Virus record (IMG/VR): IMGVR_UViG_3300046777_000191
Coordinates: 1 to 20,486 of that record
Length of the DNA stretch: 20,486 nt
Source of the DNA: a virus
Direction: 5' to 3' (one strand)
The notes below the pieces were generated by a model. The model made no database searches. It saw nothing but the letters and a program-made list of their open reading frames with translations, and had not been told where the DNA came from. Every line of letters begins with the position of its first letter. Position 1 is the stretch's first letter. Of the stretch, positions 6,231-9,195 are shown piece after piece. The translations under genes and the position numbers were made by a program.

Positions 6231-6394
6231 TACTTGCCTTTCTTCTTACGCAATACTGCAGCGTTATCTACCAAATTCGGATACGGTCTGCTCGCAGCCT
6301 TTGCACGTTTCTTGGCTGCAGCCTTCTGTGCAGTAGTTAGTTTTGTAGATTTCTTTTTCGGATTCTTTTTGTCCCAAAATTGTTTCTTCACCAT
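6230..6394 (-). CDS. 54-aa Lys/Ala-rich basic protein, unknown
   Basis: A short frame from the ATG at 6394 to TAA at 6230 encodes MVKKQFWDKKNPKKKSTKL, an Ala/Lys/Arg helix around residues 21-35, SRPYPNLVDNAAVLR and a C-terminal KKKGK. Both ends are operon-like: the start overlaps the upstream stop by 7 bases (ATGGTGA) and the stop overlaps the next start (TAATG). There are about 18 Lys/Arg against 2 acidic residues, so it should be strongly cationic and bind nucleic acid or an acidic partner. I do not recognise it. The junctions and the match to neighbouring basic genes support it as real despite its length. Confidence 0.75.
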   Translation of the reverse strand: MVKKQFWDKKNPKKKSTKLTTAQKAAAKKRAKAASRPYPNLVDNAAVLRKKKGK

Positions 6395-6687
6395 TTCACC
6401 TTGTTAGCCCAATAAGCAGCAGACATAGGACCTTTGGCTATGTTCTTGCTATGGCGTGCTTTAAATGATGCACGCTTATTCTTCATACGCTCTGACTCTC
6501 CAGCCTTCGGCTTACCAGCAGTCTTAGCCCCTTGCTCACCGAAACGAATAGTCTTAACTTGGTCGCCTTTCTTGGCGACTACAATGTGGCTTTTAGTTGG
6601 GTGGTTAGGTGTTCTTTTTGGTTTGTTATAACCAGATACACCAGCCCTCTTAAGCCTTGGGTCCGCTTTGCTTGCCATATTCCCCAT
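6388..6687 (-). CDS. Conserved small basic phage protein (DUF6321-like from memory)
   Basis: The 99-aa product has a Lys/Arg-rich N-terminal half (RLKRAGVSGYNKPKRTPNHP), a central strand pair (KSHIVVAKKGDQVKTIRFGEQGAKTAGKPKAGES), and a C-terminal RASFKARHSKNIAKG followed by MSAAYWANKVKW. I remember the last two motifs as hallmarks of a small conserved family widespread in aquatic phages and sometimes labelled DUF6321; function is unknown. Two starts are possible: the ATG at 6687 (AGGAAAG upstream) and one at 6678 (GGGGA upstream, giving MASKADPRL). The outer start is listed. With it, the first 38 bases overlap the 49-aa gene upstream in another frame. Basic charge and location next to head genes suggest a DNA-contacting head protein, as inference. 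Confidence 0.85.
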   Translation of the reverse strand: MGNMASKADPRLKRAGVSGYNKPKRTPNHPTKSHIVVAKKGDQVKTIRFGEQGAKTAGKPKAGESERMKNKRASFKARHSKNIAKGPMSAAYWANKVKW

Positions 6688-6799
6688 ACTTTCCTAGTAC
6701 TGCTCTTACTGTTCCGTTTTTGTTTAACCGCACCACATAGCCATCTTTGATTTGCACAGAGTTAAACTTGCGGTGCGGTTTGTATTTTCCTGAAGACAT
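6650..6799 (-). CDS. 49-aa basic protein overlapping the next gene, unknown
   Basis: From the ATG at 6799 to TAA at 6650 the frame encodes MSSGKYKPHRKFNSVQIKDG, then YVVRLNKNGTVRAVLGKYGEY and a short Gly/Lys tail. The alternating pattern (VQIKDGYVVRLNKNGTVRAVL) predicts a small beta-hairpin or three-stranded sheet with basic surface. The start is fused to the stop of the four-cysteine peptide (TAATG), and the 3' end overlaps the next gene by 38 bases in a different frame. The compact amphipathic pattern and coupling argue that it is translated. I recall similar short proteins in aquatic phage genomes but cannot name a family. Confidence 0.72.
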   Translation of the reverse strand: MSSGKYKPHRKFNSVQIKDGYVVRLNKNGTVRAVLGKYGEYGKQSGPKA

Positions 6800-6849
6800 T
6801 AGCACTTACACTTAGTCTTACCGCAACGCTTGCACTTCTTTGCTGCCAT
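6799..6849 (-). CDS. 16-residue four-cysteine mini-protein (candidate)
   Basis: A very short frame encodes MAAKKCKRCGKTKCKC. Its four cysteines are spaced C-x2-C-x4-C-x-C and the other residues are mostly Lys/Arg. The ATG overlaps the upstream TAA (TAATG), and its own TAA overlaps the next ATG in the same way, so it fits exactly between two probable genes with no spare bases. Four cysteines in a basic peptide could bind one zinc or iron ion, or form disulfides. It may instead be a translational relay that keeps ribosomes moving between its neighbours. The coding evidence is position, junction geometry and cysteine enrichment; there is no statistical support from length. Confidence 0.6.
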   Translation of the reverse strand: MAAKKCKRCGKTKCKC

Positions 6850-7034
6850 TATTTTTTACCCTTCTTCATAGCGCCTTTAACCTTTTTGAGGTTTGGGTTT
6901 TTTTTCTTGGCTGCTGCTGAGGCTTTCCGAGCACCAGCCGCAAGGATTGCTCCTGCACGTTCCTTGGAGATACCCTGCTTTTTGGCAATTTGTGATTGGG
7001 CTGCCTTGAAGCCCATTCCTTTTTTTGCCTTCAC
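6849..7034 (-). CDS. 61-aa Lys/Ala-rich conserved phage protein
   Basis: The product reads MKAKKGMGFKAAQSQIAKKQ, then GISKERAGAILAAGARKASAA and a Lys-rich tail (KNPNLKKVKGAMKKGKK). The middle looks like a helix-turn-helix-sized helical pair (AAQSQIAKKQGISKERAGAILA) between basic arms. From memory this pattern recurs in many small phage proteins of unknown function. The chosen start is a GTG at 7034, whose last two bases and the following A form the upstream TGA (GTGA overlap). An internal ATG at 7016 (MGFKAAQ) is an alternative but has poorer ribosome-site spacing. The strongly cationic sequence suggests DNA or RNA contact inside the head or the infected cell; this is inference. Confidence 0.8.
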   Translation of the reverse strand: MKAKKGMGFKAAQSQIAKKQGISKERAGAILAAGARKASAAAKKKNPNLKKVKGAMKKGKK

Positions 7035-7210
7035 TTTTTAATTCTGCCTTTTTTGTCATACTGACGATTCTGTAATACTGCACCCCAGAACTGACCAGCA
7101 TCAGATTGTGTTCTGCCCTGTTCGTTCCACTGTGCATATTCTTTGGCTACATTTTGGATGTAGCGAGCAATGGTTGATTTACTTTCACCTACACGTGTTT
7201 TGCCAGCCAT
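7031..7210 (-). CDS. 59-aa small basic protein, unknown
   Basis: The frame from ATG at 7210 to TGA at 7031 encodes MAGKTRVGESKSTIARYIQN, a helix VAKEYAQWNEQGR, then SDAGQFWGAVLQNRQYDKKG and a basic end RIKK. It has three aromatic-rich helical turns and a net positive charge, and no cysteines. The stop overlaps the following GTG by four bases (GTGA); the start follows the upstream Lys-rich gene by one base. I recognise no domain. Composition is more normal than that of its Lys-rich neighbours, which makes true protein coding more convincing. Confidence 0.78.
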   Translation of the reverse strand: MAGKTRVGESKSTIARYIQNVAKEYAQWNEQGRTQSDAGQFWGAVLQNRQYDKKGRIKK

Positions 7211-7211
7211 A

Positions 7212-7346
7212 TTATTTCTTCTTCTTCTTAGCAGCCATCTTCTTTGCTGCCATCTTCTTCATACCTTTTTTCATTTCCATTTTCTTTTCGGCTTTGGACT
7301 CCATCATCTCGCCCATTTTGTAAGCCTTCTTCGCTGCTTTCTTCAT
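7212..7346 (-). CDS. 44-aa Lys/Met/Ala-rich protein
   Basis: A short frame encodes MKKAAKKAYKMGEMMESKAE, then Lys/Met-rich KKMEMKKGMKK and a repeated KKMAAKKMAAKKKKK end. Nineteen of the 44 residues are Lys and nine are Met. The ATG follows directly after the upstream TAA, and GGAGC eight bases before provides a ribosome binding site. The sequence should form one continuous cationic helix, reminiscent of the Lys/Ala-rich tails of bacterial histone-like proteins, so DNA neutralisation is possible. Low complexity limits any family claim, and such a sequence could also be an unstructured peptide. Confidence 0.7.
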   Translation of the reverse strand: MKKAAKKAYKMGEMMESKAEKKMEMKKGMKKMAAKKMAAKKKKK

Positions 7347-7658
7347 TTATGCTCCTAGTTCTTTTAGTACTTCTGCTGATTTTTTATTGATGTGTTTGGC
7401 TGGTGGCATCTTGCCTGCGTCATAGGCCCTACCTAGTGTTTCACTAGCCTGAACAGCCTCCTGGATTTTACTCATCGTAGTTCCAGCAGGTTGGATACCC
7501 TGTGCTCTTGCTTCTTTATAGGCATCCAATTCTTTATTAAATGCCTTGTTAGGCATTGCTTTCTTGCTATTTGCATCCCCTGTATTCATCTGTAGAGTCA
7601 ATGCTTTGCAACCAAAGCAATCCTCAACAGGCTCGGGATGGTGCTCCCAATGTTTCAT
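7347..7658 (-). CDS. Conserved small protein with His/Cys-rich N-terminus
   Basis: The 103-aa product starts MKHWEHHPEPVEDCFGCKAL, giving three His and a C-x2-C pair within 17 residues, which could coordinate zinc. The rest is helical and polar, with ELDAYKEARAQGIQPAGTT and IQEAVQASETLGRAYDAGKM, and a Lys-rich end. From memory, this N-terminal motif recurs in uncultured phage proteins annotated as hypothetical. The gene overlaps the upstream 90-aa gene by four bases (ATGA) and abuts the Lys-rich 44-aa gene. Position after the capsid gene suggests a minor head or completion component, without direct evidence. Confidence 0.85.
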   Translation of the reverse strand: MKHWEHHPEPVEDCFGCKALTLQMNTGDANSKKAMPNKAFNKELDAYKEARAQGIQPAGTTMSKIQEAVQASETLGRAYDAGKMPPAKHINKKSAEVLKELGA

Positions 7659-7992: not shown

Positions 7993-9195
7993 CTAGAGAG
8001 CAGCGATTGAGGAACCAGAAGTAATGCGATACAACGCTTCATCACGGTAAACTGCGAAGCCAAGTACGCCGTACCAGCCCATTGGGCGGAAGCGCATCAA
8101 CTTATCAGTTACGTTACCGATAACGATGTGTGGCTCTTCAGCAACAGCCTCAGCCATTGCCTGCTGACCACAAGCGATTGTATTGAATACACGGGTTACT
8201 GGAGTTACAGTAACAACTGTGGTTGCAGAAACTGCACCAGTGTTTGCTGTATCTACAGTGATTGTGGTTGTTGAACCAGTTGTGCTGATGTCAGCAATCT
8301 TTGCACCTGAAGCAATACCAGTTCCAGCAATCTTGTCGCCAACTTCTGCACGAGAAGCAATGACGGAAGATGAAGCAACACCAAAGGTGAAGCCTGCTGA
8401 GGTACCAGCAACAGTTACAGCGGTTGTAGCCAATGCAGTCTGGTCTGCACCAGTCTTAGCATTGTATAGACGTGGGGACTCAACAAAGAATCCACCTTCA
8501 TAACGTCCGATTTCTCCAGCCCAGATATTATCTACGGCAGGTGAAGATTGTGCGTGAACAAAGTTCCAGCCCATATTTCCAGTCTCTGCACGAAGGTCGT
8601 GTGAAACCTCTGGGTGGATACCGAACCAGTAGTCAGAACCACGGCGGTACTTAGCCTTGTTAGCACGTAGTTTTGCAACTACCTTACGAACATCTGCTGA
8701 ATCAATTGTGTCAGTAGCATCTACGCCAGCGACAGAAGTTGCATCTCCTGAGAAGATGTTGTTTGAACCAGAGCGTAGGGTTGTCATTGCAATAGCATCA
8801 ATAGAATCAGCAAGGTTGTATGCAATGATATTTGCAATTGCTGGGTCTACATCTGCTAGTGAGAACAACTCAAGAGCGCGGGTTACTAGGACTGGATTAC
8901 CGTACTCATTAAGAGTAATGGTAACTGAAGTCGGAGTTGTTAGAGAAACTGCATCTGGGTCAGTTGTCTCTGTTAGTGGGGTTGTAGCCTGGTCAAGGTC
9001 TACATACTTTTGTAATACTACGGTAGAGCCAGGAAAAGCCTGACGAGCAGGACGCTTATCTGCAACTGAACGAATGAGTGGTTCAGAGCGAAGCGCAAAC
9101 TCTAGAAGGCGGTCATATGCCTTCTGTACTAGACCAGCACCACCAACGGAACCGCCGAGTGATGTACTCGCGGTTGACGTATATTGGTTAGCCAT
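7993..9195 (-). CDS. Major capsid protein (HK97 fold, N4 gp56-like)
   Basis: The 400-aa protein forms the icosahedral shell. It starts MANQYTSTASTSLGGSVGGA, continues with a helix (KAYDRLLEFALRSEPLIRSV) and a strand segment rich in Thr/Leu (residues 65-100, with TVVLQKYVDLD). A long helix follows (ANIIAYNLADSIDAIAMTTL), then ADVRKVVAKLRANKAK, FGIHPEVSHDLRAETG and the C-terminal GWYGVLGFAVYRDEALYRI. Together these match, from memory, the N4 gp56 family of HK97-fold capsid proteins in motif order and length. Residues about 248-333 are Thr/Ser/Gly/Ala-rich and look like an inserted beta domain. A strong ribosome site (GGAGGTGA) precedes the ATG, and the scaffold gene lies just upstream, the expected partner order. 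Confidence 0.92.
   Translation of the reverse strand: MANQYTSTASTSLGGSVGGAGLVQKAYDRLLEFALRSEPLIRSVADKRPARQAFPGSTVVLQKYVDLDQATTPLTETTDPDAVSLTTPTSVTITLNEYGNPVLVTRALELFSLADVDPAIANIIAYNLADSIDAIAMTTLRSGSNNIFSGDATSVAGVDATDTIDSADVRKVVAKLRANKAKYRRGSDYWFGIHPEVSHDLRAETGNMGWNFVHAQSSPAVDNIWAGEIGRYEGGFFVESPRLYNAKTGADQTALATTAVTVAGTSAGFTFGVASSSVIASRAEVGDKIAGTGIASGAKIADISTTGSTTTITVDTANTGAVSATTVVTVTPVTRVFNTIACGQQAMAEAVAEEPHIVIGNVTDKLMRFRPMGWYGVLGFAVYRDEALYRITSGSSIAAL

Follow-up and report, generated by a model that had tools for sequence, protein, structure and literature searches.

In the viral contig analysed here (IMG/VR record IMGVR_UViG_3300046777_000191, positions 1 to 20,486; hereafter the window, 20,486 bases in full), the structural genes lie on the minus strand, and between two of its small late genes, at positions 6799..6849, lies a mini-gene of 51 nucleotides that encodes the 16-residue product MAAKKCKRCGKTKCKC plus a stop codon. 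The initial annotation of this DNA gave no strand for it; the strand is minus, with the ATG at 6849 and the TAA ending at 6799, and the codons read ATG GCA GCA AAG AAG TGC AAG CGT TGC GGT AAG ACT AAG TGT AAG TGC TAA. The four cysteines occupy residues 6, 9, 14 and 16 in the arrangement CX2C-X4-CXC, the charge is +7, and the sequence contains no acidic residue and, apart from the initiator methionine, no large hydrophobic one. As that annotation had claimed, the mini-gene shares a single base with its neighbour at each end in a TAATG junction: the stop of the upstream gene, which ends at 6849, overlaps its start (6847..6851, minus strand), and its own stop overlaps the start of the downstream gene at 6799 (6797..6801, minus strand). 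A Shine-Dalgarno (SD)-like site of the mini-gene, GAAGGG, is contained in the final codons of that gene's upstream neighbour (6859..6864, minus strand; anti-SD duplex of -5.3 kcal/mol), and the start of the downstream gene has no SD (-0.9 kcal/mol).

The cysteine content is improbable by chance, and here the initial annotation was right. Among 300 dinucleotide-shuffled versions of the window, searched on both strands, TAATG-bounded open reading frames (ORFs) of 10-20 codons appeared at a mean of 0.39 per shuffle when no cysteine condition was applied, and none with at least four cysteines was found in any of them. Because there are only 7 cysteines in the 5911 codons of 14 long structural genes of the window and none in the 443 codons of the seven small genes near the mini-gene, four cysteines in 16 residues form a strong local anomaly.

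Relatives were gathered without the use of any motif, via the capsid protein and the downstream gene, and then by DNA patterns; since the pattern scans presuppose part of the sequence, results from the motif-free sets are given alongside, and the genes of the relatives were called by a simple script. At least 30 viral contigs, all of the gene-carrying relatives being uncultured contigs, have a homologue of 15-18 codons with the consensus M-x-A-K-K-C-K-K-C-G-K-x-K-C-K-C (for example, MAAKKCKKCGKAKCKC, MPAKKCKRCGKTKCKC, MPAKKCKKCGKAKCKC, MAKKCKKCGKAKCKC, MAKAKKCKKCGKAKCKC, MATKKKCKKCGKMKCKC and MPAKMCKKCGKAKSKCKC, among others). The carriers span three capsid lineages, with identities to the capsid protein of the window of 82-100%, ~44% and ~35-60% per aligned segment, some carriers having a capsid protein only ~40% identical to it, and all four cysteines are present in every relative of these lineages. 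Over a 13-codon core, the 15 distinct DNA versions gave a synonymous divergence (pS) of 0.64 and a nonsynonymous divergence (pN) of 0.05 (pN/pS = 0.08), and the five versions reached via neighbouring genes with the motif unused gave a pN/pS of 0.11. A DNA pattern in which the four cysteine codons were left free recovered only four-cysteine members and one unrelated poly-lysine ORF family, and one in which the lysines and glycine were left free recovered only members that keep these residues and, in two contigs, an unrelated match that lay out of frame. Variation in length is in frame, with one serine inserted between the cysteine pairs (CGKAKSKCKC) and one or two residues gained or lost at the N terminus; an extra residue between the pairs is thus tolerated, and no loss of a cysteine was seen among the members. 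The mini-gene is a genuine gene whose amino acids are under purifying selection, and it is of the kind that ordinary gene calling misses, as had been proposed. The conservation of the cysteine spacing with synonymous changes, also predicted, is borne out, and a comparison of the relatives for frameshifts, lost cysteines or a lost start, which the initial annotation had named in advance as evidence against the gene, turned up none of them.

That the stretch might encode no protein, being a DNA or RNA element or an ORF that is open by chance, is extremely unlikely in view of the pN/pS values, the in-frame variation in length, the SD at each start and the bimodal presence and absence described below; what speaks for it is a 3' end, AAG TGY AAG TGC, that is nearly invariant in the 15 core variants in spite of the fact that about half of the lysine codons in the window are AAG. 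These last four sense codons lie at 6802-6813 in the window, and the subfamily with the longer loop has one AAA in them; a constraint at the RNA level at the site of reinitiation is possible.

We compared 176 intervals, each running from the capsid gene to the DPRL gene, with a 14-residue consensus and found 11-14 matches in 32 intervals, at most seven in 144 and 8-10 in none; from this gap it follows that no decayed copy was seen in these intervals, the mini-gene being either intact or absent. It is present in 7 of the 88 distinct small-gene arrays of the window lineage and in 22 of the 63 distinct arrays of a second lineage, the latter counts being taken from the best 80 loci. Changes of presence on the capsid trees, which were quick trees, numbered 4 on one and 13 on another, where at least 11 are forced by well-supported branches. 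Its upstream neighbours include MKAKKGMGFKAAQ, MARKVVRVNSNPN, the DUF6496-type MKKTAKQKKVAKVMREFK and MSMKGEKY, among others, and its downstream neighbours are MSSGKYK or DUF6496 genes. Identity between the window and the related sequence L003 extends through the mini-gene and breaks down immediately before its ATG, the mini-gene is cleanly missing from L002, and the boundaries of the cassettes coincide with the start codon or with TAATG. The mini-gene is acquired and lost whole, and it offers a clear case of a 16-codon gene, well below the limits of gene calling, that is under strong selection at the protein level and moves as a unit.

The junctions themselves are less constant than the protein. 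The initial annotation had taken the two TAATG overlaps as a defining lock, a view that the relatives do not support: TAACATG, ACAAATG or a gap of 9-13 nucleotides also occur upstream, and TAATATG, TGATATG or TAGTATG downstream, and TAATATG, TGATATG, TAACATG or a short gap are frequent among them. TAATG is the most frequent junction of the array (154 of 366 junctions), and we therefore rejected any special status for it; that no base is spare holds true in the window and is no peculiarity of the mini-gene. What the members do share is an SD-like site, present at 19 of the 19 tested with anti-SD duplexes of -3.4 to -8.7 kcal/mol (versus -1.5, standard deviation 2.3, at random positions) and kept by each member although the upstream genes differ. 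The start that follows the mini-gene is without an SD (-0.4 to -2.9 kcal/mol) and lies -4, -1, +1 or +3 nucleotides from its stop in all 19 members, within the overlap or short distance that characterizes coupled gene pairs; such overlaps couple translation by termination-reinitiation in E. coli and Haloferax (PMC6728339, PMC10666635). Because its start has no SD and stands at -4 to +3 nucleotides from the preceding stop, the gene after the mini-gene is probably translated by termination-reinitiation.

The same evidence can be turned into an explanation of the whole gene, as a translational relay whose main use is to let ribosomes that finish the upstream gene pass on to the MSSGKYK or DUF6496 gene, its amino acids being incidental. 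The good SD of the mini-gene, the poor downstream start, the spacing and the precedents for coupling in the two organisms just cited all fit this explanation, which we nevertheless consider quite unlikely as the main role: the codons vary while the amino acids stay conserved, the cysteines and lysines are kept across capsid lineages and across altered spacing, and in most arrays the same downstream gene directly follows other genes, often also without an SD. A relay, suggested in the initial annotation, is probably real as a side effect given the lack of an SD at the next gene; it leaves unexplained why amino acids are conserved amid free synonymous change.

We favour, with a probability of roughly 0.6, the reading that this is a functional 16-codon late gene for a cationic mini-protein whose four cysteines most likely chelate one Zn(II) in a minimal zinc knuckle. 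The analysis establishes the gene itself, the selection on its amino acids, its modular gain and loss, its place in the genome and its SD pattern; expression, metal binding, a role on nucleic acid or in the virion, and reinitiation are steps that we infer. Translation of the mini-gene would start from its own SD site, and that of the next gene would then proceed by termination-reinitiation. Since the mini-gene sits in an array between the capsid and tail-adaptor genes, the mini-protein is probably produced late, together with the head proteins. The thiols of CX2CG-X4-CXC (X5 in a subfamily) would bind one Zn(II) and leave a surface rich in lysine and arginine. By itself or together with other array products, the mini-protein may act on the head during assembly or on nucleic acid, a role for which the argument is one of position. 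The parts that stay constant are CX2CG, followed by a variable loop of 4-5 residues (six in a possible relative, L214), and then CXC, which is what one would expect of two metal half-sites joined by a flexible loop. A more specific version, which we put forward tentatively and hold to be on balance doubtful, is that the mini-protein folds only on metal binding and serves as a minimal knuckle on the packaged DNA or the head, its cassette moving among capsid lineages. If this version is true, the mini-protein would rank with the smallest metal-dependent proteins that have their own gene. The mini-gene is a convenient test object for the lower size limit of genes for metal-binding proteins.

Several points weigh against this reading. 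The peptide has 16 residues and no hydrophobic core, and its tie to the virion or to nucleic acid is one of position and charge only. Most arrays lack the mini-gene (81 of 88 and 41 of 63), which is for this reason dispensable. Among two-C(P)XCG micro-proteins of Haloferax volcanii, 5 of the 14 tested were zinc-free (PMC11241148), so that a motif of the CX2CG type is no proof of zinc. A profile search of PDB gave only non-significant matches to the zinc knuckle of the human immunodeficiency virus (HIV) protein NCp7, with E values of 3-5 and over the first half only.

The initial annotation had offered a metal-binding mini-protein, a disulfide peptide or a relay. The first of these fits best; the second is unlikely for what would be a cytoplasmic late gene product without a signal. 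The cysteines could also make the product a soluble metal scavenger of the metallothionein kind or a redox peptide acting during infection, with no structured knuckle, and a cysteine content of 25%, the CXC and CX2C pairs, the lack of large hydrophobic residues and the flexible spacing between the pairs are consistent with such a thiol or buffer role. We regard it as unlikely, because the invariant glycine after the second cysteine and the fixed CX2CG resemble a knuckle and the location in an array of head genes suggests a role in assembly; metallothioneins, moreover, have far more cysteines than the mini-protein. A cationic peptide directed at the host or of an antimicrobial type, with for example a host enzyme or a rival phage as its target, would likewise be small and contain cysteines, and the patchy distribution of the mini-gene resembles that of accessory genes. 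There is no hydrophobic face or signal, though, the mini-gene lies within the late structural module and its lysine-rich composition is common to its neighbours, and we judge this possibility to be very unlikely.

The C(P)XCG zinc-finger micro-proteins of Haloferax volcanii (HVO_0758 and HVO_2753; PMC11241148) are the closest of the known kinds; they are likewise very small and stand-alone, and their CX2CG pairs are predicted to chelate one metal ion. The phage-borne product of the mini-gene, at 15-18 residues, falls within the size range of that class (stand-alone, under 70 residues, with its own SD), but the class has at least two CX2CG motifs whereas the mini-gene family has one, its second pair being CXC in all members of the three lineages. 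AlphaFold2 has been reported not to predict a metal-ready cysteine geometry in micro-proteins of the C(P)XCG type (PMC11241148). The NCp7 knuckle resembles the mini-protein in being short and lysine-rich and in having CX2CGK at its start. Its ligand spacing is CX2CX4HX4C. The mini-protein, with CX2CX4-5CXC, departs from the spacing of a CCHC knuckle and lacks significant profile similarity to it, and there is no evidence of homology with NCp7. Another zinc-binding fold is a ribbon of the FmdB type (Pfam Zn_ribbon_8, TIGR02605) in a protein of the relative L166 encoded two genes upstream of the mini-gene; this ribbon is not similar to the mini-gene product, has ~40 residues and two CX2C pairs far apart, and in L166 it scores below the Pfam and NCBIfam cut-offs. 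The DUF6496 (PF20106) and other array genes are exchangeable neighbours of similar charge and with similar junctions, but they have no cysteines, encode mostly 45-100 residues and are unrelated in sequence to the mini-gene. Scans of PHROGs, Pfam and NCBIfam have a limit of 20 residues, below which the 16-mer falls; a version of longer cysteine-tailed proteins shortened by hand to 37 residues had no PHROG match, and a 45-residue protein of L161 had no Pfam match. The mini-protein probably works like a zinc knuckle, and we place it in none of the families tested.

Searches of annotated phages with tblastn (26-residue query) and blastn (64-nucleotide query) gave no credible match; thus no phage that is annotated or in culture was found to carry the mini-gene, a negative that the shortness of the queries makes weak. 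Streptomyces phages with related capsid proteins (WRightOn) have no comparable array in their annotation, and no description of the family was found in the papers searched. A match in a Lachnospiraceae metagenome-assembled genome, found in genome contigs, was chance-like and lay inside a longer frame, and the motif matches in L157/L176, L159, L169, L180 and L219 were set aside because they lie in unrelated frames or proteins. Taken together, the motif and its neighbourhood provide a simple rule by which genes of this kind can be sought in further phages.

Around the mini-gene, the minus-strand order of the window is portal, large internal proteins, a scaffold-like protein, the major capsid protein, the small-gene array, a 307-residue adaptor-like protein and fibre-like genes. 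The major capsid protein (7993..9195, minus strand; PHROG 1357, Pfam Phage_capsid_3) belongs to the same late module and precedes the array on its upstream side. The array itself (6388..7346, minus strand) houses the mini-gene among small lysine-rich genes of 44, 59, 61, 16, 49 and 96 residues that are exchangeable between related phages, and the interval from capsid to adaptor is a hypervariable mosaic in the window and in ~88 related arrays, with gene order and content shuffled between close relatives; 357 of 366 array genes have no cysteine. The upstream cassette, MKAKKGMGFKAAQ... (6849..7034, minus strand), is rich in lysine and alanine, encodes 61 residues from a GTG or 55 from an internal ATG, and is swapped for other cassettes in relatives. 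The downstream cassette, MSSGKYKPHRKFNSVQIKDGYVVRLNKNG... (the MSSGKYK gene; 6650..6799, minus strand; 49 residues), is kept in the majority of arrays, whether or not they contain the mini-gene. The mini-gene in this way points to a hypervariable lysine-rich array of late genes beside the capsid gene.

Further cysteine peptides occur in other phages. In a second phage group (L161, L164, L172, L174 and L184), a glycine- and lysine-rich protein of 45-54 residues ends in CxKCGKRKCxC and is encoded in a comparable stretch of small genes that adjoins a DPRL-like gene and precedes one of the tail type; at the same locus of L165 it is shortened to the 16-residue MKGSGCVKCGKRKCEC, with the cysteine tail kept. 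This suggests that the cysteine unit can stand alone or form the tail of a protein, any shared ancestry with the window family being putative. Two unrelated phages encode tiny cysteine peptides behind strong SD sites, the 18-mer MAGKKCKKCGKTGCSKHY (L206:1012-1068) and MAEKKCKNCGKPMSKCKCK (L214:4250-4309), the latter being the possible relative with a six-residue loop. In MAGKKCKKCGKTGCSKHY three cysteines are kept and a histidine, a residue often seen in zinc sites, stands near the fourth position, as it does in the variant form KKCKKCGKTGCSKHY; the homology is uncertain.

Two observations concern the surroundings of the array. The L166 protein mentioned above (L166:3065-3406; 113 residues) precedes the array, and its N terminus is the sub-threshold ribbon (Zn_ribbon_8, TIGR02605), so that zinc ribbons do occur in this operon; in the counterpart in the window, at 7347-7658, only CFGCK remains. 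Lastly, a short box, TR[IV]G, is common to otherwise different cassettes in the window (7031-7210) and in the arrays of L003, L058, L095, L121 and L127, as in MAGKTRVGESK... and ...PGKTRVGPLAGGGLGGMFGTKNR, which suggests a common binding tag.
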